Made by a program: the position numbers and the translations under genes
Virus record (IMG/VR): IMGVR_UViG_3300031111_000227
Location: 1-25,286 of that record
Reading direction: 5' to 3' (one strand)
DNA: 25,286 nucleotides
Source: a virus
Part shown: piece by piece, positions 826-25,286 of the stretch
Position numbering within the stretch: the first letter of the stretch is position 1
Layout: every line of letters starts with the position of its first letter
The notes under the pieces: model-generated
Seen by the model: the letters and a program-made list of their open reading frames with translations, nothing else
Told to the model about the DNA's origin: nothing
Database searches by the model: none

Positions 826-1371
826 ATGAGCTCGGAAAAATCTGAAAAATCTGAAAAATCTGAAAAACCAGAACGACCAGAACGACCAGAACGACCAGAA
901 CGACCAGAACGACCAGAACGTGAAGAATCGAAGTGTTACGAACACGGAGCGGACGCAGAATATCGCGTCGTCGGCATCCCGGACGGCGAGCTGTTTTGCT
1001 CCAAGTGCGTCGTTGAGCTCGCCGAACACAAGTACGCAGTCGTTCGATGGCCACAGACGTTGGAGCTCCTTAACGTCAAGACCGGCGAACGCACGACGGT
1101 AAGAGCGGTCGTGAAGAAGTACAGTGAAGAGATGAGCTCGGTGCCGGCTGAAGTGTGTAGCGTATGCGGATTCACGCGCGATAACCCAGACGGCTGGCAC
1201 GATTGCCAAATGCATTTGAAGCTCGGTGATTGCTCGGAGTGCGATAATATGACGTGCAATTGCCGCGAATGCCCACACCCGGATGATTGCTCGGAGTGCG
1301 GGTTCTTCGACGGGCCAGTGTCGGCAAATTGCCGGTATACCGGCGAAGTTATGACAGCTGAGGAAGAATAA
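826..1371 (+). CDS. Cys-rich protein with SEK/PER repeat N-terminus
   Basis: 181 residues in three parts. Residues 3-32 are a low-complexity tail: four SEK and six PER tripeptides encoded by perfect 9-bp tandem repeats. Next comes C37-x2-H40 with C58-x2-C61, a pattern shared with the genes at 4140 and 10216. The C-terminal third is packed with paired Cys, 14 Cys in total, suggesting several zinc sites. The start follows a GGGGGT SD (813-818, 7 nt spacing). The charged repeat tail is probably disordered and its length may vary by slippage. No family was recognised. Confidence 0.75.
   Translation: MSSEKSEKSEKSEKPERPERPERPERPERPEREESKCYEHGADAEYRVVGIPDGELFCSKCVVELAEHKYAVVRWPQTLELLNVKTGERTTVRAVVKKYSEEMSSVPAEVCSVCGFTRDNPDGWHDCQMHLKLGDCSECDNMTCNCRECPHPDDCSECGFFDGPVSANCRYTGEVMTAEEE
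832..921 (+). repeat. In-gene 9-bp tandem repeats (TCTGAAAAA, then CCAGAACGA)
   Basis: Four copies of a TCNGAAAAA unit are followed by six of CCAGAACG(A/T), in frame, adding SEK and PER tripeptides. The PER unit read as CGACCAGAA differs by one base from the non-coding 9-mer CGATCAGAA repeated at 5903-5947. Confidence 0.95.
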
Positions 1372-5306: not shown

Positions 5307-5774
5307 ATGGGCAGTAAATCAGATTGGAACACGACGCCCTTCAAGAGCATCGAACAGGCGCACCAGATGGCGACCAGGTTGAATCTAGCTCCTTCAGCGA
5401 TAGTCACTTTGGAAGGAGGTATGCGAACCTTCCAGATCAAAGAAGGGCGAGCCACGACAGTGGTTGCTCAGCGGATGGCTGGGGGACCTGTGAAGGAGAA
5501 GAAGGTCAAGCGCGGAGAGCCTAAACCTCCTCTGCAGGATCCAGATGCTCCGACGTTCAGCGACGAGGACCGCTTCCAGGTAGGGCCCTGGGTGAGGATC
5601 GACTTTGACTGTGTAGAAGCGGCGCTCGAACATCTATTGTCGCAGTTCGTGAATCCTGACAACGTGGAGCAACTAGAGATGACGCTCGTGCGCCTAGACG
5701 ACGACGAATACGAGTTCTTCGAGAGCACCTCGGGCAAAGTGTGGGAGCGCGTCTTGCACAGGAAGGGCAAGTAG
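5307..5774 (+). CDS. Hypothetical protein, 155 residues
   Basis: An N-terminal segment of about 55 residues with a strand-helix-strand look, a basic Pro-rich linker (KEKKVKRGEPKPP) and an acidic C-terminal part. The SD is GAGGAGG, 9 bp after the previous stop. It is the last gene before the structured non-coding interval. No family recognised. Confidence 0.65.
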   Translation: MGSKSDWNTTPFKSIEQAHQMATRLNLAPSAIVTLEGGMRTFQIKEGRATTVVAQRMAGGPVKEKKVKRGEPKPPLQDPDAPTFSDEDRFQVGPWVRIDFDCVEAALEHLLSQFVNPDNVEQLEMTLVRLDDDEYEFFESTSGKVWERVLHRKGK

Positions 5775-5776
5775 AT

Positions 5777-5888
5777 GGGTACTGACACGATTGTAGGAGT
5801 GACTGACCTTATAGGTAACAACTCACTGCAATCGTATCAGTGCCCACCCAACGAGACCTTTGGGACTGGCTGGGGGTAGCTCGTTGGG
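5777..5888 (+). promoter_or_regulatory. Two adjacent hairpins in a non-coding interval
   Basis: Arms 5777-5793 and 5829-5845 pair over 17 positions with one G-U wobble and one mismatch. The loop between them contains smaller self-complementary pieces (AGTGA/TCACT and ACCT/AGGT). Immediately after, CCCAACGAG (5847-5855) pairs perfectly with CTCGTTGGG (5880-5888). No run of T follows, so these are not standard intrinsic terminators. They could be a leader RNA structure, a processing site or a small RNA upstream of the HTH gene. Confidence 0.6.
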
Positions 5889-5902
5889 GGTCAACTTCGG
5901 CC

Positions 5903-5947
5903 CGATCAGAACGATCAGAACGATCAGAACGATCAGAACGATCAGAA
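5903..5947. repeat. Five copies of a 9-mer (CGATCAGAA)
   Basis: Five perfect units, flanked by 6-bp inverted arms GGCCCG (5899-5904) and CGGGCC (5948-5953). The unit differs by one base from the coding 9-mer CGACCAGAA of the gene at 826. It may be a binding array or an expanded microsatellite. Confidence 0.9.
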
Positions 5948-5958
5948 CGGGCCCTATA

Positions 5959-5974
5959 TAACACGGAGGTGTTA
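5959..5974 (+). promoter_or_regulatory. Hairpin holding the SD of the HTH gene
   Basis: TAACAC (5959-5964) and GTGTTA (5969-5974) form a perfect 6-bp stem with the loop GGAG. The SD GGAGGTG is thus half in the loop and half in the stem, 2 nt before the ATG at 5977. Pairing would limit ribosome access, suggesting translational control. Confidence 0.5.
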
Positions 5975-5976
5975 CG

Positions 5977-6405
5977 ATGGATTTGAGTCAACTGGAACAA
6001 CTGCTCACAGTGAATGACGTCGCAGAGATGTTCGACGTCGAGCCCCGTATTGTACGACGTGAGGCGCGGAAGAACAACATCCCTGGCGCTATCGACGTCC
6101 TAGGACGCCACGGCTTTGACCCTGACAAGGTGAAAGAGTGGGAGCCGCCCGAACCTGGCACGCGGCGCGTAGGCGCTCGGCGCGAGGACGGACGTCAGCG
6201 CTATCGCATCTACCTGTCGCCTCAGGAGTACGAGGACCTGAAGGCCAAGGGGTTCGAGCTCGTCGACCCGCGAGAGGCAGCCAAGGCGCGACGCGCTGCT
6301 CGCAAGGCCAAGAAGGCCGCCGCCGCTGAAGCCAAAGCCGACGATGGCGGCCAGGCTGCTCAGGTCGAGCAAGACGAAGAGGATCCGTTCGCCGACTTCG
6401 AGTAG
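5977..6405 (+). CDS. HTH (MerR/excisionase-like) DNA-binding protein with acidic tail
   Basis: 142 residues. Residues 10-50 (LTVNDVAEMFDVEPRIVRRE...) fit the winged or MerR-type HTH of phage excisionases and small regulators. Residues 60-90 are basic with a short strand-helix unit. A Lys/Ala-rich helix (92-115) follows, then a very acidic tail ending DEEDPFADFE, reminiscent of SSB-type tails. It probably binds DNA as a regulator or accessory protein. Its own leader carries hairpins, a 9-bp repeat array and an SD hairpin, so its expression is likely controlled. A hairpin follows the gene. Confidence 0.6.
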   Translation: MDLSQLEQLLTVNDVAEMFDVEPRIVRREARKNNIPGAIDVLGRHGFDPDKVKEWEPPEPGTRRVGARREDGRQRYRIYLSPQEYEDLKAKGFELVDPREAAKARRAARKAKKAAAAEAKADDGGQAAQVEQDEEDPFADFE

Positions 6406-6418
6406 AAGTTGGCCAATC

Positions 6419-6454
6419 AGTGACGGCGGGCCTCCAGTCAGGCCCGCTATCACT
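6419..6454 (+). terminator. GC-rich hairpin after the HTH gene
   Basis: GCGGGCCT (6426-6433) pairs with AGGCCCGC (6440-6447) around a 6-nt loop, and outer arms AGTGA/TCACT add 5 bp beyond a 2x2 internal loop. It lies 14 bp after the stop. No U-tract follows, so it may be a weak terminator or an RNA-stabilising 3' structure. Confidence 0.55.
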
Positions 6455-11759: not shown

Positions 11760-11916
11760 AGATGCAATACCCGAGGATCACGCTTACGATGTGTTCGCTG
11801 AGAACGTCTCCTTGCGGAACACGCTCAGCTTCTTCCTGATGCTCTCATTGATACACGCAGGTGTATCGTTAGCGCTCGTGATTATCGTGGTCTCGTTGCT
11901 GAAGGATCTGATCTGA
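11749..11916 (+). CDS. 55-residue single-span membrane protein
   Basis: A polar 25-residue start (MASRDAIPEDHAYD...) precedes a hydrophobic region of about 25 residues (FFLMLSLIHAGVSLALVIIV) and a short end. The SD is AAGGAGG within the upstream gene. The stop overlaps the next start as TGATG. Second of a pair of tandem mini membrane proteins. Function unknown. Confidence 0.55.
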   Translation: MASRDAIPEDHAYDVFAENVSLRNTLSFFLMLSLIHAGVSLALVIIVVSLLKDLI

Positions 11917-12116
11917 TGGCGACGCAAGAGCCCAACGATAGAGGACAGAAGCTCACGCAAAGGGATGTTAGGGCCATCTATAACCTTTGTGAGGAGGGGA
12001 CCCTGACGCAGTGGGAGATAGCTCACCTATTCGGCGTTACGCAGAGTATGGTAAGCAAGATATACAATCGCCGGAATTGGAAAGATGTTGTGCTCCAGAA
12101 GGGAGAGGGTGCTTGA
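11916..12116 (+). CDS. Small HTH DNA-binding protein
   Basis: 66 residues. Residues 13-52 contain a clear helix-turn-helix (DVRAIYNLCEEGTLTQ, then EIAHLFGVTQSMVSKIYNR), similar to sigma-70 region 4-like or resolvase HTH units often found beside phage HNH genes. It lies immediately before an HNH protein gene. It could be a regulator or supply DNA specificity for its neighbour. Confidence 0.7.
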   Translation: MATQEPNDRGQKLTQRDVRAIYNLCEEGTLTQWEIAHLFGVTQSMVSKIYNRRNWKDVVLQKGEGA

Positions 12117-15676: not shown

Positions 15677-15698
15677 AGGAGGTGATGCACATAAGGAC

Positions 15699-15730
15699 TA
15701 GGACGTAGGACGTAGGACCGTAGGACCGTA
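15699..15730. repeat. Short tandem repeats (TAGGACG / TAGGACCG) between genes
   Basis: Two 7-bp units TAGGACG are followed by two 8-bp units TAGGACCG in the gap between the exported-protein gene and the ssDNA-binding gene. A strong SD-like AGAGGAGGTG with an ATG right after it (15683) precedes them but leads only to a 7-codon frame that ends inside the repeat. Confidence 0.85.
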
Positions 15731-16264: not shown

Positions 16265-16296
16265 CTAGGGCAGGTGGGTTCGCTCACCTGCCCTAG
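16265..16296 (+). terminator. Perfect hairpin with UUCG loop after the ssDNA-binding gene
   Basis: CTAGGGCAGGTG (16265-16276) pairs with CACCTGCCCTAG (16285-16296) without mismatch, extended inside by a G-U and a G-C pair to close a UUCG loop. It lies 11 bp after the stop. Only TTCT follows, so termination may be partial; it likely separates recombination genes from the pathway genes. Confidence 0.75.
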
Positions 16297-17470: not shown

Positions 17471-18127
17471 ATGCATGTAGTCGTTCTTTCAAGTGGAGGG
17501 TTGGACTCTACAACCCTTGTCTACTATCTACTGAAACTAGGGCACGTACCGCACTTGCTGTATATAGCCTACGGTCAACGCCACTCCAAAGAGGAGGAGT
17601 TCTCGCGGACGGTAGCGGCTAACCTAGGTCTCGGATGGACAAAGGTTGAACTTGGGCTCGTCCTTGAATCGTCGGCGCTAACGAACCAGGAGCTCGAGAT
17701 ACCTTCTGGCAACTACACAACTGAGAGTCTCAAGGTAACAGTCGTCCCGAACAGAAACGCGATCTTTGCGAACATTGCGGCAGCCGTCGCAGCTGATCAC
17801 AGAGCAGAGGCGATAGCGCTTGCTGTGCACGCTGGAGATCATCCAGTGTATCGCGACTGTAGACCTGAGTTCATAGGGGGCCTTAAAAAGTTTCTGTCGC
17901 TATCACTGGACAACCCCCTTGACGTTATGGCCCCGTTCGTCTACATTCCGAAGGCGGCCATCGTCCTGCTAGGGGATATCTTAAACGTTCCTTTCGACCT
18001 CACGTGGAGCTGTTATAAGGGCGAGGAGCTGCACTGCGGTACCTGCTCGACGTGCCGAGACCGTATGGAGGCCTTTGCGAAGGCCGGCGTTCCCGATCCT
18101 ACACCTTACGGCATATGGAAGATTTGA
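17471..18127 (+). CDS. queC: 7-cyano-7-deazaguanine (preQ0) synthase QueC
   Basis: 218 residues. The PP-loop SGGLDST (8-14) binds ATP; VVPNRNAIFANIA is the family core; the C-terminus carries the zinc Cys set CYKGEELHCGTCSTC. QueC turns 7-carboxy-7-deazaguanine into preQ0 using ATP and ammonia. Full length for the family. GAGGAG SD, 13 bp after queF. Its TGA overlaps the start of a mini membrane gene (TGATG). Confidence 0.95.
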   Translation: MHVVVLSSGGLDSTTLVYYLLKLGHVPHLLYIAYGQRHSKEEEFSRTVAANLGLGWTKVELGLVLESSALTNQELEIPSGNYTTESLKVTVVPNRNAIFANIAAAVAADHRAEAIALAVHAGDHPVYRDCRPEFIGGLKKFLSLSLDNPLDVMAPFVYIPKAAIVLLGDILNVPFDLTWSCYKGEELHCGTCSTCRDRMEAFAKAGVPDPTPYGIWKI

Positions 18128-18213
18128 TGGGCGAATTACCGATAGATGATAGAGTGCTATGGAGCGTGATCGTGCTGGGACTAGCAGTGGTCACGATACT
18201 AATCTCGAGGTGA
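18127..18213 (+). CDS. 28-residue membrane peptide between queC and queD
   Basis: MGELPIDDRVLWSVIVLGLA... has a short acidic start and one hydrophobic segment (about 10-26). The start overlaps the queC stop as TGATG and the stop lies 3 bp before queD, so it is in the pathway operon. Small size leaves doubt, but position and composition match the other mini membrane genes. Confidence 0.45.
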   Translation: MGELPIDDRVLWSVIVLGLAVVTILISR

Positions 18214-18216
18214 AAT

Positions 18217-18555
18217 ATGAGACTATACTTGAAGAGGAAGTTCGCAGCTTCACATAAGCTAGACCTTCCCTACGCAAGCAAATGCGGTAAGCTCCACGGC
18301 CACACGTGGGTAGTAGAAGTGTGGCTCGAAGGGCCAATTAACGAGGACGGGATGGTAGTTGACTTTCAGGTAATAAAGGAAATGATCGACACCTTCGATC
18401 ATACGTATCTGAATGACTGCATCCCCTTCTACAACTCAGGTGCGAATCCTACGGCTGAAAACCTGGCGCTGTTCTTTATCCGTACGATTCCTCATGCTAT
18501 ACAGGTACGGGTCTGGGAGTCCGAGGATGCGTACGCTGAGGAGTTCAGACCATGA
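18217..18555 (+). CDS. queD: 6-carboxy-tetrahydropterin synthase QueD
   Basis: 112 residues, a normal length. Zinc ligands H13 (FAASH), H27 and H29 (LHGH) and catalytic C23 are present, as are FDHTYLND, PTAENLA and VWESEDAYAE. QueD converts dihydroneopterin triphosphate (product of FolE) into 6-carboxy-tetrahydropterin. The stop overlaps queE by 4 bp (ATGA). Confidence 0.93.
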   Translation: MRLYLKRKFAASHKLDLPYASKCGKLHGHTWVVEVWLEGPINEDGMVVDFQVIKEMIDTFDHTYLNDCIPFYNSGANPTAENLALFFIRTIPHAIQVRVWESEDAYAEEFRP

Positions 18556-19190
18556 CCGTCTATAGGATTTCAGAGATCTACCGCACGATGCAGGGTGAGG
18601 GTTGGTGGGCAGGGATGCCTTGTACGCTTGTACGATTCCAGGGGTGCAACTTGAGCTGTCCGTTCTGTGACACTAAGGAGTCGATCGACCAGACTTCTGG
18701 TGAGCAACTTAACCTATTACAGCTCTTCAATCGGATTAGCGACGTCCACGTTAAAGGGCAGATGATCTTGATCACAGGGGGCGAGCCGACACTTCAACCC
18801 CTAGAACAATTAGTCAAGGTCCTGTACCCACTAGGGCCAGTGCATCTTGAGACGAATGGAACCCAGCCCCTATCAGGGGACGTTATGTTCAACTGGACAG
18901 CTGTAAGCCCCAAGATTACTTGGTGCGGTGAAGATGCAAAACCAGTCCAGAGCATGCTCGGCCGCGCTGACGAGATAAAGTGGCTCGTCGGTAAGGAGCA
19001 GGACATCGAGGAGTTGAAAGCCTTCCTAGAGGAGGTTAGTTCCCTGGGTTTCGCTGATGGTCCTTTCAAGCGCGTAACGTTACAGCCTATTTCGCAATCA
19101 GGCCAAGCAACCGAGATAGCATATCAGGCGTGTCTCGAGTACGGTTGGCGGCTCAGCCTGCAGATGCACAAGTACCTCGGTAAGCCGTAA
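18552..19190 (+). CDS. queE: 7-carboxy-7-deazaguanine synthase QueE (radical SAM)
   Basis: 212 residues. The radical SAM cluster motif is C-x3-C-x2-C in GCNLSCPFCDT; ITGGEPTLQ is the SAM-binding GGE motif; MQGEGWWAGMPCTLVRFQG is the family's usual opening. QueE makes 7-carboxy-7-deazaguanine from 6-carboxy-tetrahydropterin. Translationally coupled to queD. The next small gene starts 1 bp after its stop. Confidence 0.93.
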   Translation: MTVYRISEIYRTMQGEGWWAGMPCTLVRFQGCNLSCPFCDTKESIDQTSGEQLNLLQLFNRISDVHVKGQMILITGGEPTLQPLEQLVKVLYPLGPVHLETNGTQPLSGDVMFNWTAVSPKITWCGEDAKPVQSMLGRADEIKWLVGKEQDIEELKAFLEEVSSLGFADGPFKRVTLQPISQSGQATEIAYQACLEYGWRLSLQMHKYLGKP

Positions 19191-19191
19191 C

Positions 19192-19407
19192 ATGAAGACG
19201 TGTAGACATTGCGGTCGGGAGTTCGAATATGGAAAATACTACTGGCAGAGCTGTTGCGACGCCTGTGCGCAGGAGCACAAGAACGACTGGCCGATAGAAG
19301 GTGACACGTGAGGCATCTGCGGCGGAGAGATAGTTTATCTCTACACGAGGGAGTACGAAGCACACTACGAATGCCCTGAGTGCAACGCTCGTTGGGCCTA
19401 TGACTGA
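19192..19407 (+). CDS. Two-zinc-motif mini protein interrupted by an in-frame UGA
   Basis: From ATG 19192 the frame gives a 39-residue zinc protein (C4-x2-C7, C21/C22-x2-C25) ending in TGA at 19309-19311. The same frame continues as GICGGEIVYLYTREYEAHYE, then CPEC, to a TGA at 19405-19407. This second part is a zinc ribbon lacking only its first Cys, and the UGA stands exactly there (UGA-x2-C). It has no start codon of its own. A 7-bp hairpin with a G-first loop lies 15 nt after the UGA. Options are selenocysteine readthrough, a nonsense mutation, a sequencing error, or just the 39-residue product. No good SD. Confidence 0.5.
19326..19342 (+). other. Hairpin downstream of the in-frame UGA
   Basis: AGAGATA (19326-19332) and TATCTCT (19336-19342) form a perfect 7-bp stem with loop GTT. 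The loop starts 21 nt after the UGA and its first base is G, which fits what is generally described for bacterial selenocysteine insertion elements. Palindromes this short also arise by chance. Confidence 0.35.
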
Positions 19408-19416
19408 GTGAATCTT

Positions 19417-19600
19417 TAGCGCATTGTATGAGGAACGGTGCACTATCAAGATATAAGGAGAAACATATGTTGAAAAAACTACTACCTACCGTTACGATCC
19501 TGCTCGTGCTTGTCGGCATCACGGCATCAAGTATGCTCTTGATGACGCCGCCTGACAGCTCCGCTATGCCTCTGCTCGACGTTACGCCTACAGAACCTCC
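19417..19600 (+). repeat. 5' block of cassette 1 (direct repeat)
   Basis: 184 bp covering the 5' untranslated region, SD and signal-peptide codons of the gene at 19467. It is repeated at 20258-20441 (offset 841 bp) with only one difference (GTT versus GCT in codon 39). Confidence 0.95.
19418..19442 (+). repeat. 25-bp inverted repeat, copy 1 (forward)
   Basis: Begins AGCGCATTG and ends GGTGCA. Its exact reverse complement is at 20162-20186, so the pair brackets the gene at 19467. Confidence 0.95.
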
Positions 19601-20123
19601 TCTAGTCCCTGACCACCTCTACCGTGTAGGCGTATATCACACAACTGACTATGGCTGCGACAACTGTGGCTTCTCAGGCACTGTGGATGACATCGACAGC
19701 TGTTACACCTGCAAGTACGCCTCGAGTCACCTAAACACGAACAAGTGTACTCAGATTCCAGTGTCGTACTGCCGCACTGCTAACGGTTTCGCTCCTGATT
19801 ATGTCCTGTACTGGGCTAACGGCGAGTTCCGGTGGCACTACGGCCTCTCAGGCCAATACTTCTTCGGCTCCAACTTCGTGACCGACGAATACTACGGCTA
19901 TGGCGGCGAGTACTGGTGGGAGTACCCAGTGACTGACGAGGACCAAGAGACGGTCTATTACAAGGAGTTCGACGAATGGACTGTCGAGGCCGAGGTACAT
20001 GAGGACGCGTACTGGGACAAAGAGTGGTGGTCTCAGTACCTCGGGGGCCTCGAGGGAGCATACTGGGACACCTGGAACGTACAGTTCCGATGGGCTGAGT
20101 GTAAGGGTACTGTCTGCCCGTAA
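19467..20123 (+). CDS. Secreted Cys/aromatic-rich protein, cassette copy 1
   Basis: 218 residues. MLKKLLPTVTILLVLVGITA is a signal or anchor segment, followed by a Pro-rich spacer to residue 45. The mature part is rich in Tyr, Trp, Asp and Gly, with eight Cys, several in pairs (CDNC, CYTC). It shares blocks with the product at 20308: VDDIDxCYxC, ASSHL, LYWANG, FFGSNF/YFGANF, and a WA(E/D)C...CP end. SD AAGGAG, 6 nt from ATG 19467. No family recognised. It probably acts outside the cytoplasm. It interrupts the deazaguanine operon. Confidence 0.75.
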   Translation: MLKKLLPTVTILLVLVGITASSMLLMTPPDSSAMPLLDVTPTEPPLVPDHLYRVGVYHTTDYGCDNCGFSGTVDDIDSCYTCKYASSHLNTNKCTQIPVSYCRTANGFAPDYVLYWANGEFRWHYGLSGQYFFGSNFVTDEYYGYGGEYWWEYPVTDEDQETVYYKEFDEWTVEAEVHEDAYWDKEWWSQYLGGLEGAYWDTWNVQFRWAECKGTVCP

Positions 20124-20213
20124 CTGTTCGAACACGTCTTTGATCTAGTGTAAGAGGAACCTGCACCGTTCCTCATACAATGCGCTAAAACTTTCGAAAG
20201 GAGAAAGGAGATA
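20124..20213 (+). repeat. 3' block of cassette 1 (direct repeat)
   Basis: 90 bp of non-coding DNA after the stop, repeated at 20992-21081 (offset 868 bp) with only about two differences. It ends in an SD-like AAAGGAGATA; here no gene follows this SD, while in the second copy it serves folE. Confidence 0.95.
20162..20186 (-). repeat. 25-bp inverted repeat, copy 2 (reverse)
   Basis: Exact reverse complement of copy 1, after the first cassette gene. With copy 3 (20259-20283) it could also form an intergenic 25-bp stem around a 72-nt loop. Confidence 0.95.
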
Positions 20214-20257
20214 ACACTGGAAAACAACTTAACCTCGGCTTTCAAGTCGTCAGTCAC

Positions 20258-20441
20258 TAGCGCATTGTATGAGGAACGGTGCACTATCAAGATATAAGGA
20301 GAAACATATGTTGAAAAAACTACTACCTACCGTTACGATCCTGCTCGTGCTTGTCGGCATCACGGCATCAAGTATGCTCTTGATGACGCCGCCTGACAGC
20401 TCCGCTATGCCTCTGCTCGACGCTACGCCTACAGAACCTCC
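20258..20441 (+). repeat. 5' block of cassette 2 (direct repeat)
   Basis: Second copy of the block at 19417-19600, one base different over 184 bp, covering leader, SD and the first 44-45 codons of the gene at 20308. Confidence 0.95.
20259..20283 (+). repeat. 25-bp inverted repeat, copy 3 (forward)
   Basis: Identical to copy 1, upstream of the second cassette gene; the matching reverse copy is at 21030-21054. Confidence 0.95.
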
Positions 20442-20982
20442 AGTCTCCAAGTGCTACATTGTCGGAGTTGTTCACGAGAACCTGGGCGGGGCAGCCTTTA
20501 CTATCCGCGACGTAGATGACATCGACGCATGCTATTCCTGCCCCTTAGCCTCCAGCCACCTAGTGAACGAGTGTTCTTCCATCGACCTCTACTGGTGTGA
20601 TCCAGATTCAGGCTTCGGCTTCGACCCTGAATACTTCCTATACTGGGCGAATGGGTACTTCAACTCTGACTCTGGTTGTGGGGGCTCTGGAGGACCTTGT
20701 ATCGAGGATGACTACTACTTCGGGGCCAACTTCACGACCGACGAGGAGTACGACAACGACTGGTGGGACTACCCCTTCCCGTCGCCAGGTTACGCAGAGC
20801 AGACAGAATACTGGTCCTATGGGGGCCAGGAAGCTTACGTGAACTGGTATGGCAACTACGCCAATCAGAACGTCGGCTTCCAACAGTATACCAACTTCCC
20901 GTGGCTCAACACCTACTTCAACAACAGCAATGCCCAGTGGAGATGGGCAGACTGTCATGCAGGATCCTATAGCTGCCCGTAA
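20308..20982 (+). CDS. Secreted Cys/aromatic-rich protein, cassette copy 2
   Basis: 224 residues. The first 45 are the same as in the product at 19467 except V39 to A. The mature part is related but strongly diverged, with several insertions (Ser/Gly/Cys-rich GCGGSGGPC; Asn/Tyr-rich end region). Nine Cys. Shared blocks are VDDIDACYSC, ASSHL, FLYWANG, YFGANF and RWADC. The same SD is used. The flanking DNA is far more alike than the mature coding part, so the middle has been exchanged or has changed fast. Function unknown. Confidence 0.75.
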   Translation: MLKKLLPTVTILLVLVGITASSMLLMTPPDSSAMPLLDATPTEPPVSKCYIVGVVHENLGGAAFTIRDVDDIDACYSCPLASSHLVNECSSIDLYWCDPDSGFGFDPEYFLYWANGYFNSDSGCGGSGGPCIEDDYYFGANFTTDEEYDNDWWDYPFPSPGYAEQTEYWSYGGQEAYVNWYGNYANQNVGFQQYTNFPWLNTYFNNSNAQWRWADCHAGSYSCP

Positions 20983-20991
20983 CGCTCGCAG

Positions 20992-21081
20992 CTGTTCGAA
21001 CACGTCTTTGATCTAGTGTAAGAGGAACCTGCACCGTTCCTCATACAATGCGCTAAAACTTTTGAAAGGAAAAAGGAGATA
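20992..21081 (+). repeat. 3' block of cassette 2 (direct repeat)
   Basis: Second copy of the block at 20124-20213. Its terminal AAGGAGATA is the SD of folE (ATG 21085). Confidence 0.95.
21030..21054 (-). repeat. 25-bp inverted repeat, copy 4 (reverse)
   Basis: Identical to copy 2, between the second cassette gene and folE. It lies in the folE leader and so could affect folE translation if it pairs with copy 3. Confidence 0.95.
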
Positions 21082-21084
21082 GAT

Positions 21085-21762
21085 ATGACAACAGTAAGAA
21101 GGACACAGATGACGACGTACGAGGACGCAGTAGACCCGTACCCTCCCTATGATAAGGTGGGTAGCGGAACAGTGGGCTACGCGTTCAGGCTCCTGGCACA
21201 TTGCGGGATGCCTCTCGCTGCACGCAAATACGAGGGACTTAGTGTGGCAGAGGTTCCAGCGCATCCGCATCAGATGATGACGCCGTATCGCCTAGCCCAC
21301 TACTTATCGTACTGGTTCAGGCCACAGAAGGAACTACGCTTCACGACCTTCGAGAACGTAGACCCTAAGGTCGACCAGGTCGTGTGCGTCGATCCCATCG
21401 ACTACTGGGCAGTGTGCTCGCATCACATGTTGCCCTTCTTCGGGAAGATCTACTTCGGTTACATCCCGAAGGACAAACTCATAGGTCTCAGCATGATACC
21501 CTTGTTAGCGAAGGAATTCTGCGCGAGGCCCTGGGTGCAGGAGCACATGACTCAGAGGTTGGCCGACATCCTGATCGAGAAGTCAGATCCCCTGGCACTA
21601 GGTTTGGTCACAGTGGGGACGCATACCTGTCAGATGCTTGACCTGCAGGGCCCACCAGTTCCCAAGATGACCTTCTCAGTGATGTACGGGAAGTTCAAGG
21701 AATCCGATAGGGCGAGGGCGGAGTTCTTGAAGTTGAGTGGGATAGACAAAGGAGGTGTATGA
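21085..21762 (+). CDS. folE: GTP cyclohydrolase I FolE
   Basis: 225 residues, full length. Zinc and catalytic motifs are present: CSHHMLPFFGKIYFGYIP, LIGLSMIPLLAKEFCARPWV (with the conserved R), and THTCQMLDLQG holding the second zinc Cys. FolE converts GTP to dihydroneopterin triphosphate, the first step toward preQ0. The SD lies in the 3' repeat block of the cassette. Its stop overlaps the next gene (ATGATGG). Confidence 0.9.
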   Translation: MTTVRRTQMTTYEDAVDPYPPYDKVGSGTVGYAFRLLAHCGMPLAARKYEGLSVAEVPAHPHQMMTPYRLAHYLSYWFRPQKELRFTTFENVDPKVDQVVCVDPIDYWAVCSHHMLPFFGKIYFGYIPKDKLIGLSMIPLLAKEFCARPWVQEHMTQRLADILIEKSDPLALGLVTVGTHTCQMLDLQGPPVPKMTFSVMYGKFKESDRARAEFLKLSGIDKGGV

Positions 21763-22397
21763 TGGCATTAGTGATCACTGGTACGCAACGTTCAGGTACG
21801 TCTGCGATAGCTAAGCTGTTCATCGAGATGGGCTACGACCTTGGCTCTTACTGGTTTGACGAGACAGTACAGGGCGGGTACGAGAACCTCCTCGCATGCG
21901 CGTTCTATCGCTACTGGCTCGGAGACGACTCCTTCCCGTTCATCGGAGCTCCTTATGGGAAGTATGGGCCAGGTGAGATCTCACAAGGACTCCTGCCAGT
22001 GATGTTTTCGCAGATGGATTATAAGGTCCTCAAGTTCAGCTACCTATGCATGAACCCTGTGTTCGTCTCAATCTGGCACAAGTTCAGGCCACACCAGGAC
22101 AAGTTCCTGATTATGCATAGGGACCCTAACGCAGTCGTGCGGTCAAAAGAGGCGCATAGGGATCAGTTCGATCTCGATAGCCTGCTCTTGTCAAAGAGCT
22201 CGAGGGGCCTCAGAGCGAACTTCGGAACGAGCGTCGAATTGCTCGGATCTGTTGGTGAGGAGTCCTGGATGTTGCCCTTCCCGGATTGTCTGGATGACTT
22301 CGACATGGTAGACGAGGCAGTGATGTCCCTCGTCGATGTCAAGATTCCTCTTGGTATCTGGGAAGAGGTCGTTGATAAGTCGAAGGTACATTTCTAA
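21762..22397 (+). CDS. Sulfotransferase-like protein (PAPS-type)
   Basis: 211 residues. The N-terminal VITGTQRSGTS (GTQRSGTS at 7-14) matches the 5'-phosphosulfate loop of sulfotransferases, and HRDPNAVVRS (R120, S128, R-x7-S) matches the 3'-phosphate motif. PAPS-dependent transfer of sulfate is the expected reaction; the acceptor is unknown. ATG 21762 gives the better spacing to GGAGGTG (21751-21757) than ATG 21759. Its place between folE and the DpdA gene suggests, but does not prove, a link to DNA base modification. Confidence 0.65.
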   Translation: MALVITGTQRSGTSAIAKLFIEMGYDLGSYWFDETVQGGYENLLACAFYRYWLGDDSFPFIGAPYGKYGPGEISQGLLPVMFSQMDYKVLKFSYLCMNPVFVSIWHKFRPHQDKFLIMHRDPNAVVRSKEAHRDQFDLDSLLLSKSSRGLRANFGTSVELLGSVGEESWMLPFPDCLDDFDMVDEAVMSLVDVKIPLGIWEEVVDKSKVHF

Positions 22398-22414
22398 CCT
22401 TAAGGAGGTTACAT

Positions 22415-22744
22415 ATGATCTACACGAAGAAGGAACAGGAACAGTTCAAGTTGACGAAAGCGAGGTTCGCGAAACTCTTTACGGGCCTCCTGGAGACAAT
22501 GCTCGCAACCTACGAACGCAAAGGGCAGAAGCGCGATGTCGGGTCTCCAATACATCACAGGCAGTCGCCAAGCACGATGCTGGCAATCGCACAAGCCAAG
22601 ACGCGAAGGATCGAATCGATCCTCTCACAACCCGCTTGGGAAAGAGAGAAGTCGATGCGTGAAGCGGTTATTGAGGAGTGCGTGGATGCAGCGAACTACA
22701 TGCTCTACATCGGCGCCCTGTGTCTATTACTAGAGGAGGGATAA
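22415..22744 (+). CDS. Helical protein, possibly MazG-like/nucleotide-modification associated
   Basis: 109 residues, all helical. The end, REAVIEECVDAANYMLYIGA, resembles the E-x2-D half of MazG/DUF1599-like phage proteins linked to nucleotide metabolism, but the E-x2-E half is not evident. AAGGAGG SD, 7 nt spacing. The DpdA-like gene starts 3 bp after its stop. A role in nucleotide handling is a guess from this likeness and position. Confidence 0.6.
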   Translation: MIYTKKEQEQFKLTKARFAKLFTGLLETMLATYERKGQKRDVGSPIHHRQSPSTMLAIAQAKTRRIESILSQPAWEREKSMREAVIEECVDAANYMLYIGALCLLLEEG

Positions 22745-22747
22745 GCG

Positions 22748-23764
22748 ATGCAAGTATCACACATAGTACCTCCTGGCTGGGCAGGCATCTTTCCTAAGGG
22801 CTCCTACCGGATGGTCCTTGCTCACTGGGTCCTCGGCTATCCGGGGTATGCAGCTACAATGAAGGGGAGCCCCAGAGCGCTTGCACCAGATTCGCCTTTC
22901 ATCCTTCTGGATAATGGCGTCTTCGAAGGCGAACAGGTAACGCTCGACCAGCTCAACGAAGCTGCGCGCCGTGTCTGCGCAGATGAGGTAGTACTACCTG
23001 ATGTTCAGGGCGATCCGAAAGCTACTTTACACCGCTCGTGGACTGCCTTAGGGAAGATCGCAACGAATCGCCTCGTGTTTGTTCCTCAGGGAGCTACGCA
23101 TGAGGAGTGGGCTAAATGCCTGCAGGCATGGATCTCAAGGTGGGAGCACTCGGATTGGGCTGATGTGTACACCCTGACAATCGGAATCTCATCTTTGCGT
23201 AATCCTGAGGACCGGAAGGCCATACAAGGTACCAGACCACAGCAGATGATAGAGGCGGCTAAAACCGCTTACCCGGTGCATCTTCTCGGAATCGCAAGCC
23301 CGCGCGTCTTCGGCGAAGAGGAGCTCCCGGTAGCTCTATCGTGCGGAGTTCGTGGCGTCGACTCCTCGACAGCCTTCGCGTTAGGTGCTTCAGGAAAGCT
23401 GTTGACGATGAAGCAGCCGAAAGAGTTCCTAAGGGTTCCAGGTTCCTATGACCTGTTGCCGACGAACAGCAAACGCCTCATATACCTGAATCGTGCTATC
23501 CTTGAACATTGGGTAGCCGAAGGCGAGGGAAGTGAGGTAGTTCCTACACATATAGTTCGAAGTACTGCTCAGCGATGGCTGAAGTACTACCAAGAGGGCT
23601 TCTGTCCACTTGAGGACGTTCTGAAGGCTGTCGGCCTGAAGGGTAAGTTCGCTCTTACAAGGGGATCTCGAAAGGGCCGAAACGCGACGAGACGCGAGAA
23701 GCATCTGCGACCCCTCGAGGACAATGAGAAGCCGTTAGATCACGAGGAGGTTATAAATGTGTAA
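22748..23764 (+). CDS. dpdA: DpdA-like DNA-guanine transglycosylase (7-deazaguanine in DNA)
   Basis: 338 residues related to tRNA-guanine transglycosylase. D55 in LLDNGVFEGE corresponds to the general-base Asp of DSGGFQ, D205 in GVDSSTAFALG to the nucleophile, with LPDVQGD (83-89) and VHLLGIASP between. The zinc Cys set of tRNA enzymes is absent, as in DpdA proteins. A basic C-terminal extension (KGKFALTRGSRKGRNATRRE) may bind DNA. It would exchange guanine in DNA for preQ0 or preQ1 made by the upstream genes. The end overlaps the next gene by 8 bp. Confidence 0.8.
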   Translation: MQVSHIVPPGWAGIFPKGSYRMVLAHWVLGYPGYAATMKGSPRALAPDSPFILLDNGVFEGEQVTLDQLNEAARRVCADEVVLPDVQGDPKATLHRSWTALGKIATNRLVFVPQGATHEEWAKCLQAWISRWEHSDWADVYTLTIGISSLRNPEDRKAIQGTRPQQMIEAAKTAYPVHLLGIASPRVFGEEELPVALSCGVRGVDSSTAFALGASGKLLTMKQPKEFLRVPGSYDLLPTNSKRLIYLNRAILEHWVAEGEGSEVVPTHIVRSTAQRWLKYYQEGFCPLEDVLKAVGLKGKFALTRGSRKGRNATRREKHLRPLEDNEKPLDHEEVINV

Positions 23765-24023
23765 CAACCACTTACTATCTGGACGCCTGCTCGCAGCAGC
23801 GTGGTGGGCTAGTTTCTTTCTGTCGACATGGCTGCTTATCCTAGGGAGAATCCCTGGGCGGACCTGGCCTGTCTGCCTCGTCTTCCTGCTAGGTTCTCTC
23901 GCCATCACAGTGCTCGTACACGGAGCAGTACAGGCCGCACGTGACGACACTGCGGAGGAGATGATCAGTGCGCTCTCAAAGATCGTTAAGTCGGCGCCTC
24001 GGGTAGGCGGCAACCATGACTGA
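23757..24023 (+). CDS. 88-residue two-span membrane protein
   Basis: Hydrophobic stretches at about 10-30 and 37-58, then a charged helix. GAGGAGG within the end of dpdA serves as SD. It overlaps both dpdA and the polymerase gene by 8 bp. No family recognised. Confidence 0.65.
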   Translation: MCNNHLLSGRLLAAAWWASFFLSTWLLILGRIPGRTWPVCLVFLLGSLAITVLVHGAVQAARDDTAEEMISALSKIVKSAPRVGGNHD

Positions 24024-25286
24024 ATATTGTTCGACTTGTCCGTACAAGGGTCGCCCTCGAGTACCACCTGAGGGCGATCCGAGTACGGCTAAGTACATAC
24101 TGATAGGCGAGGCGCCTGCCTACGACGAGGTTCGTAAAGGGCGCCCCTTCATAGGCAAGACAGGCCGGCTGCTAATGGCGTTCTTAAGGCGTGCTGGCAT
24201 AAACCGTGGAGATTGCTACTTAACGAACGCCATCAAATGTTCCTTGCCGCGTGAGAAACGTGGCTATTCCCGCGCCCTTGCAGTATGCCGACATGAACTT
24301 GCTGACGAGTTGAGAGTGGTTGCCGAGACGAACCCTGACGCACAAATAGCAGTTATGGGAGGGATCGCTAAAGAGGCGATCTGGCCGAACGACAAGAGCG
24401 GCATTATGGCGTCTAGGGGTTGGCGGCGGCTGGGTGAGCGCTGGGTTTACGTAATGGCGCATCCTGCCTACTACAACTACAATCCCGATCAAGCACCTAT
24501 GTTCGTAAAGGATCTGCAACGTCTCAAGCGTGGGAGATTGGAGGCACCCATCGTCGCCCCTGTGATCATAGATACTCTTGAGGGTCTCGTGGATCTTCTG
24601 CATCAGGCAGCACGCGTAAAGCCTGAGGATCGAAACTTTGTAGCGTTCGACCTCGAGACAGATCAGGTCGACTTCCAGCGAGACCGTATCCTGTGCATGA
24701 GCGTCTCCTTCAACTTCGGTACAGCCTACATCATACCAGACAGCTTATTGTATGAGGATGGTAAGGAGTTCTACACCGGCTCTTGGACGAAGAGGGTGCA
24801 AGCGAGGTTCCTAGACGACTTCCGGTATCATACCGGAGAGTACCTAAAGCCAGATGAACGCACTGTAAGATTACTCTATCAGTTGTTTGCAGTGCCTGGC
24901 TATCGCTGGGTAGGACATAACGCAAAGTTCGACTTGCGGTTCCTTATCGGACAGCTAGGAGTTGAGAATGCACATGTGGACTTCGACACCATCGTTGCGC
25001 ACTATGCGCTGGACGAGCGCAAGGGCGGTCACGGTCTTAAACCGCTGGCTGACGACTACTTTGATTCTGGTGACTACGAAGCTACCCTATTCAACTATAT
25101 CACCAAGAAGTCGGCTAGATACAGTAGAATACCGAGGCCGGTGCTATATCAGTATAACGCTATGGATACAGAGCTGACTTTGCGCCTCGCATATGCTCTT
25201 GAACGGGAGTTGAAACAGCAGGGTTTGTATGAGCAACCCTTCATGTTCCCGATGATGGAAGCATTGCCAATGCTGCTCAACGCCGA
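24016..25286 (+). CDS. Family A DNA polymerase with N-terminal uracil-DNA glycosylase and 3'-5' exonuclease domains (partial)
   Basis: 423 residues seen; the gene runs off the window. Residues 1-170 look like a family 4 uracil-DNA glycosylase: GEAPAYDE (31-38), RPFIGKTG, LTNAIKC and HPAYY (149-153), with four Cys (5, 8, 75, 91) placed as Fe-S ligands. Residues 205-400 are a DnaQ/Pol I-type 3'-5' exonuclease with FDLET (D212, E214), HNAKFD (N302, D306) and YNAMD (Y380, D384). The polymerase domain is expected downstream. Glycosylase-polymerase fusions are known in some phages (SPO1-type). The Gly of GEAPG is Ala here, so uracil excision is uncertain. Confidence 0.85.
   Translation, partial: MTEYCSTCPYKGRPRVPPEGDPSTAKYILIGEAPAYDEVRKGRPFIGKTGRLLMAFLRRAGINRGDCYLTNAIKCSLPREKRGYSRALAVCRHELADELRVVAETNPDAQIAVMGGIAKEAIWPNDKSGIMASRGWRRLGERWVYVMAHPAYYNYNPDQAPMFVKDLQRLKRGRLEAPIVAPVIIDTLEGLVDLLHQAARVKPEDRNFVAFDLETDQVDFQRDRILCMSVSFNFGTAYIIPDSLLYEDGKEFYTGSWTKRVQARFLDDFRYHTGEYLKPDERTVRLLYQLFAVPGYRWVGHNAKFDLRFLIGQLGVENAHVDFDTIVAHYALDERKGGHGLKPLADDYFDSGDYEATLFNYITKKSARYSRIPRPVLYQYNAMDTELTLRLAYALERELKQQGLYEQPFMFPMMEALPMLLNA

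Follow-up and report, generated by a model that had tools for sequence, protein, structure and literature searches.

The locus examined here raises the question of why nearly the same 9-mer should be tandemly repeated twice in one virus genome, once in front of a gene and once inside another. The window, i.e., the whole stretch of DNA that was analysed, is a virus record of 25,286 bp. It is continued by contig L047/G001 (25,659 bp), which is identical to window positions 20311-25286 and then extends past the window end, and about 46 kb of the virus were seen in all.

On the + strand, CGATCAGAA forms five exact head-to-tail copies at 5903-5947, as described in the initial annotation, and the period extends by two further bases (CG), which makes a perfect array of 5.2 copies at 5903-5949. 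A two-copy pattern with up to two mismatches gave 9 matches, compared to 0.02 expected from 100 dinucleotide shuffles. The array sits between ORF 5307-5774, behind which a 34-codon frame follows, and an ORF for a helix-turn-helix (HTH) protein that starts at 5977, 28 bp downstream of the array. It is probably an untranslated leader. That it is non-coding, as had been stated, is likely but unproven, the unit being free of stop codons in every + frame. A possible, equally unproven frame of 48 codons with a GTG start (5840-5986, + strand) reads R-S-E through the array, which would then be a repeat of a small peptide, of the E-[KR]-[SP] kind encoded in ORF 826. This frame is open, and its unit phase equals that in ORF 826. 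Against a translated repeat, the codon score of the frame, with the array left out, is intermediate (-0.01 per codon, while gene segments average 0.24 and wrong frames -0.22), the frame runs into the beginning of ORF 5977, and inspection revealed no ribosome-binding site before GTG 5840. We therefore consider translation of this array very unlikely.

The sister array lies about 5 kb upstream, at 867-920 on the + strand, and differs by one base from the CGATCAGAA array, in agreement with the earlier description. It is located in frame in ORF 826-1371 (+ strand), which codes for 181 amino acids with a repeat-bearing N terminus (MSSEKSEKSEKSEKPERPERPER...) followed by a Cys-rich domain. The product has no match in Pfam, PHROG or NCBIfam, and a protein scan yielded no relatives. 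The copy number of six holds in the register ACCAGAACG alone, in which the array encodes E-R-P repeats; in the register used before, CGACCAGAA, there are five copies (874-918). Immediately 5' of it we find another array, absent from the initial annotation, of 3.7 copies of GAAAAATCT (835-867, + strand) that encodes E-K-S repeats. The array copies are perfect, without synonymous variation, and the gene array uses minor codons of the virus: GAA has a virus-wide share of 0.28 of Glu, CGA 0.11 of Arg and CCA 0.16 of Pro codons. As had been argued from the start, selection on the protein is the poorer account: the copies agree base for base and are written in minor codons. Nor, with such codon shares, can codon preference account for the likeness of both arrays.

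Do the two arrays have a common origin? Among 200,000 random draws of 9-mer pairs from the window, approximately 0.25% were as similar (P about 0.0025; at most one mismatch, all rotations and both strands considered). In addition, GTGTTACGA and AACACGGAG are common to the 60-bp 3' flanks of the two arrays. Each of these words occurs twice in the window, at the two array flanks only, and both are missing from L047 and L050. When 60-bp pieces were paired at random 200,000 times, 0.014% of the pairs had two such words in common (post hoc P about 1.4e-4). Next to the arrays the two words appear in swapped order, such that AACACGGAGGTGTTACG at 5960-5976, in a leader with a Shine-Dalgarno-like GGAGG and a predicted small hairpin, is a rotated copy of the 17-mer GTGTTACGAACACGGAG at 933-949 within ORF 826 (both + strand). 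Rotated 17-mers of any kind were found at two places in the window and as 23 pairs over 36 other viral loci. They are thus not rare, and what is unusual is their position beside both arrays. The second pair of the window lies at 11936 and 13844, near the HTH ORF at 11916. Alignment of the 5' flanks yielded only TGGGGGTA in common, part of a motif that is frequent before genes here. The flank words were chosen after seeing the sequence, and we take them as suggestive of a shared origin. The proposal of a common source, made in the initial annotation, is therefore supported in part, i.e., by the likeness of the units and by the shared 3' flank words, the test of the latter being post hoc. The alternative is coincidence, two independent slippage arrays that happen to have similar units. 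The window does contain several 9-bp arrays, and many unrelated genomes have the unit as well, but a unit likeness found in 0.25% of random pairs and flank words shared by both arrays make a chance resemblance improbable.

Taken together, we propose that both arrays are short tandem repeats that arose by recent replication slippage, probably from one source sequence within the phage. One source sequence would have given rise to both arrays, recent slippage would have expanded each of them, and the two would have come to lie in different surroundings, one in the stretch that encodes the N terminus of a small Cys-rich protein, the other in the HTH gene leader. According to this proposal, the copies are identical because expansion is recent, and not due to conservation of protein or DNA; identical copies in rare codons are as expected of recent slippage. 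From these data we infer the slippage mechanism, a copying event between the loci and the lack of an essential function. The arrays comprise at least three near-perfect head-to-tail copies, as is typical of slippage-derived short tandem repeats. Moreover, the window holds four non-edge perfect arrays of at least 2.9 copies. A control set of other viral loci (446,617 bases), mostly picked for a two-copy match to the unit and including near-identical contigs, has 13 of them, which gives a Poisson P of about 0.007. Within the window, such repeats are concentrated on the left side. Bacterial and phage short tandem repeats generated by slippage are similar in having perfect short-period copies, in being private to one genome, and in occupying coding as well as leader DNA. 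They differ from the present case in that here the units of two arrays are a single base apart and the flanks have words in common. A search of the literature on phage tandem repeats returned nothing relevant. If slippage alone is at work, the case illustrates the spread of a repeat word through a phage genome, into coding and leader DNA alike. As a whole, the arrays are a genuine curiosity, if a modest one.

Further tandem repeats of the window were noted along the way. GCCGTGT is repeated 18 times at the left contig edge (1-127). Two other viral contigs carry four such units, one of them right at its beginning; neither has protein matches in common with the window. The repeats of AGAGGAT (2535-2565) and AGGACGT (15694-15726) directly precede ORFs, the latter an SSB-like gene.

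A function at the DNA level had been offered as the other explanation, with further arrays and conservation in relatives as its expected signs. A search for CGAYCAGAA finds two places only in the 46 kb of this virus. The rest of the window and the continuing contig are free of both 9-mers. In that contig one perfect array of at least three copies was seen, that of a 13-mer. A distant relative, G002, has kept the order helicase, nuclease, Sak4-like ATPase, SSB-like, QueC, QueD, QueE and FolE, and in spite of this synteny it is without the array. It encodes an HTH_17 protein (E 3.8e-9) upstream of the helicase; alignment of this protein with the HTH product of the window is no better than noise.

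In viruses at large, the two-copy match was observed in 29 contigs, of which L034 alone shows three copies in a perfect-repeat scan, its array sitting just after a stop codon. Twenty bacterial contigs from unrelated taxa carry at least three copies. Nineteen of these arrays are inside open frames of at least 100 codons, read in differing frames (D-Q-N, R-P-E and others), and in contig L058 the array follows a stop codon. The longest array, with 9 exact copies and 10.4 periods, belongs to a Chloroflexi MAG (L060). It resembles an intergenic hairpin at first sight, but reads as D-Q-N coding repeats. Likewise, a conserved array family was rejected, given the scattered, unrelated bacterial contigs, the differing frames and the mostly two-copy arrays of viruses. 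Arrays that are scattered over unrelated taxa in varied frames rather suggest that the unit arises repeatedly by itself.

Inverted arms around the 5903 array were reported in the initial annotation. GGCCCG (5899-5904) and CGGGCC (5948-5953) are indeed present, and a 6-bp stem around the array is possible (5899-5953, + strand). However, the CG of both arms belongs to the repeat, which leaves just GGCC per side outside of the array. As GGCC is self-complementary, an inverted repeat is indistinguishable from a direct repeat at this place. The predicted RNA fold of 5890-5960 is better than that of shuffled sequences (z = -3.2), and that of 5880-5990 has no clear excess (z = -1.3). When the letters of the unit were permuted within identical arms, 76 of 210 arrangements (the observed one counted) folded equally well or better, and so a hairpin function is not indicated. 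Rfam gave no matches at gathering scores. In view of the fold z values and the permutation test, an RNA hairpin as the function of the array is unconvincing. Strong predicted hairpins, both without a T run, are found elsewhere: right after the HTH ORF (6419-6454, + strand, z = -7.0) and just after the SSB-like gene (16265-16296, z = -5.4).

A binding site for the product of the adjoining gene is the form of DNA-level function that deserves closer consideration. ORF 5977-6405 (+ strand) encodes 142 amino acids with an N-terminal winged HTH (wHTH) of HTH_17/BldC-like kind and a Lys/Ala-rich and acidic tail. The product matches PHROG 66, "excisionase and transcriptional regulator" (E 4.4e-7), Pfam HTH_17 (E 0.0016; 19.1 bits, below the curated cut-off of 27) and, over 28 residues, NCBIfam BldC (E 1.9e-4). 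The latter match, at 21.2 bits, is below the curated cut-off of 77 and thus does not place the protein in the BldC family. Neither viral contigs nor phage records, the latter searched by tblastn up to an E of 1, contained a relative of this product. The single-sequence structure model had a mean pLDDT of 60, which is not good enough to search by fold. Among solved structures, chain 6ama, a BldC-smeA-ssfA DNA complex, matches best, at a weak E of 0.36. In this alignment the equivalents of BldC Arg30, Gly44 and His46 are unchanged and Arg takes the place of Lys26, the residue numbering being deduced from the 71-residue 6ama chain with an offset of three residues.

The 5977 product might regulate itself by occupying, in the head-to-tail manner of BldC, the five 9-bp direct repeats that end about 28 bp before its start codon; the ORF 826 array, located where the early genes begin, would then serve as its second site. 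We regard this as unlikely, with arguments to be named on either side. Each BldC protomer is described as binding a 9-bp direct repeat, head to tail (PMC5859096), and the exchanges R30A, G44E and H46E are stated to essentially abolish binding (PMC5859096); by analogy, the 5977 product may act like BldC. The HTH_17 relative RdfS is described as binding and repressing its own promoter (PMC11963761). The array does consist of 9-bp direct repeats near a candidate target gene, and in the best BldC-like register the one base that differs between the two arrays would be an unread position. On the other hand, the Pfam and NCBIfam matches are under their curated cut-offs, and, compared with the reported BldC consensus, AATTXXXX(C) (PMC5859096), or with AATTNNNN(C), the unit has three of four A/T positions plus the C, a fit that approximately 62% of random 9-mers of the window equal or surpass. 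Further sites are absent in the 46 kb, no 9-bp repeats were found upstream of the HTH_17 gene of G002, and a promoter-like site was looked for near the array and not found.

The BldC operators of whiI and smeA-sffA are, as described (PMC5859096), contiguous 9-bp direct repeats as well, and BldC is the nearest solved relative of the wHTH of the next gene here. Those operators are characterised as AT-rich and degenerate (PMC5859096), whereas the phage arrays are perfect copies, a candidate operator next to a family match below cut-off. Apl of phage 186 (PMC7498355) and RdfS of an ICE (PMC11963761) are presented as small wHTH proteins bound head to tail to direct repeats; the likeness here consists of the repeats and a predicted wHTH, control of the own promoter being a feature of RdfS (PMC11963761). 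For Apl and phage excisionases a spacing of 10-11 bp is given (PMC7498355), which is the excisionase-type (RDF) spacing and not the period of 9 in the phage array, and an integrase was not noticed in the window.

The absence of other arrays in the 46 kb and the lack of conservation in relatives thus speak largely against a DNA-level function, the BldC-like gene next door being the one lead. An extended version, in which a phage HTH_17 protein would control itself and an early gene via two slippage-expandable 9-bp operator arrays, with strength tuned by copy number and one operator doubling as a coding repeat, appears to us quite unlikely. If the adjoining wHTH protein does bind the array, the array would act as an operator that tunes itself, evolving through changes in the number of repeats. 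For the time being, recent slippage from one source sequence is the reading we prefer.

Several other features of the window may be recorded. Genes of the preQ0 pathway (QueC, QueD, QueE, FolE) are located at 17471-21762 in an order repeated in G002, and this set presumably points to 7-deazaguanine modification. ORFs 19428 and 20269 adjoin (19415-20187 and 20258-21057), have near-identical starts and are each framed by an inverted repeat of 26-28 bp, which looks like a duplicated cassette; L047 starts inside the second of these two copies (20258-21057). ORF 22748 was suspected to encode a tRNA-guanine-transglycosylase-like enzyme, which none of the searches supported. The ORF at 24016-25286 fuses a family-4-type uracil-DNA glycosylase domain with a 3'-5' exonuclease domain of DNA polymerase A. 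Finally, between 445 and 14254, GGGGGT has ten + strand occurrences, eight of which are closely followed by an ATG, and a single one on the - strand; it looks like a ribosome-binding signal of this phage.
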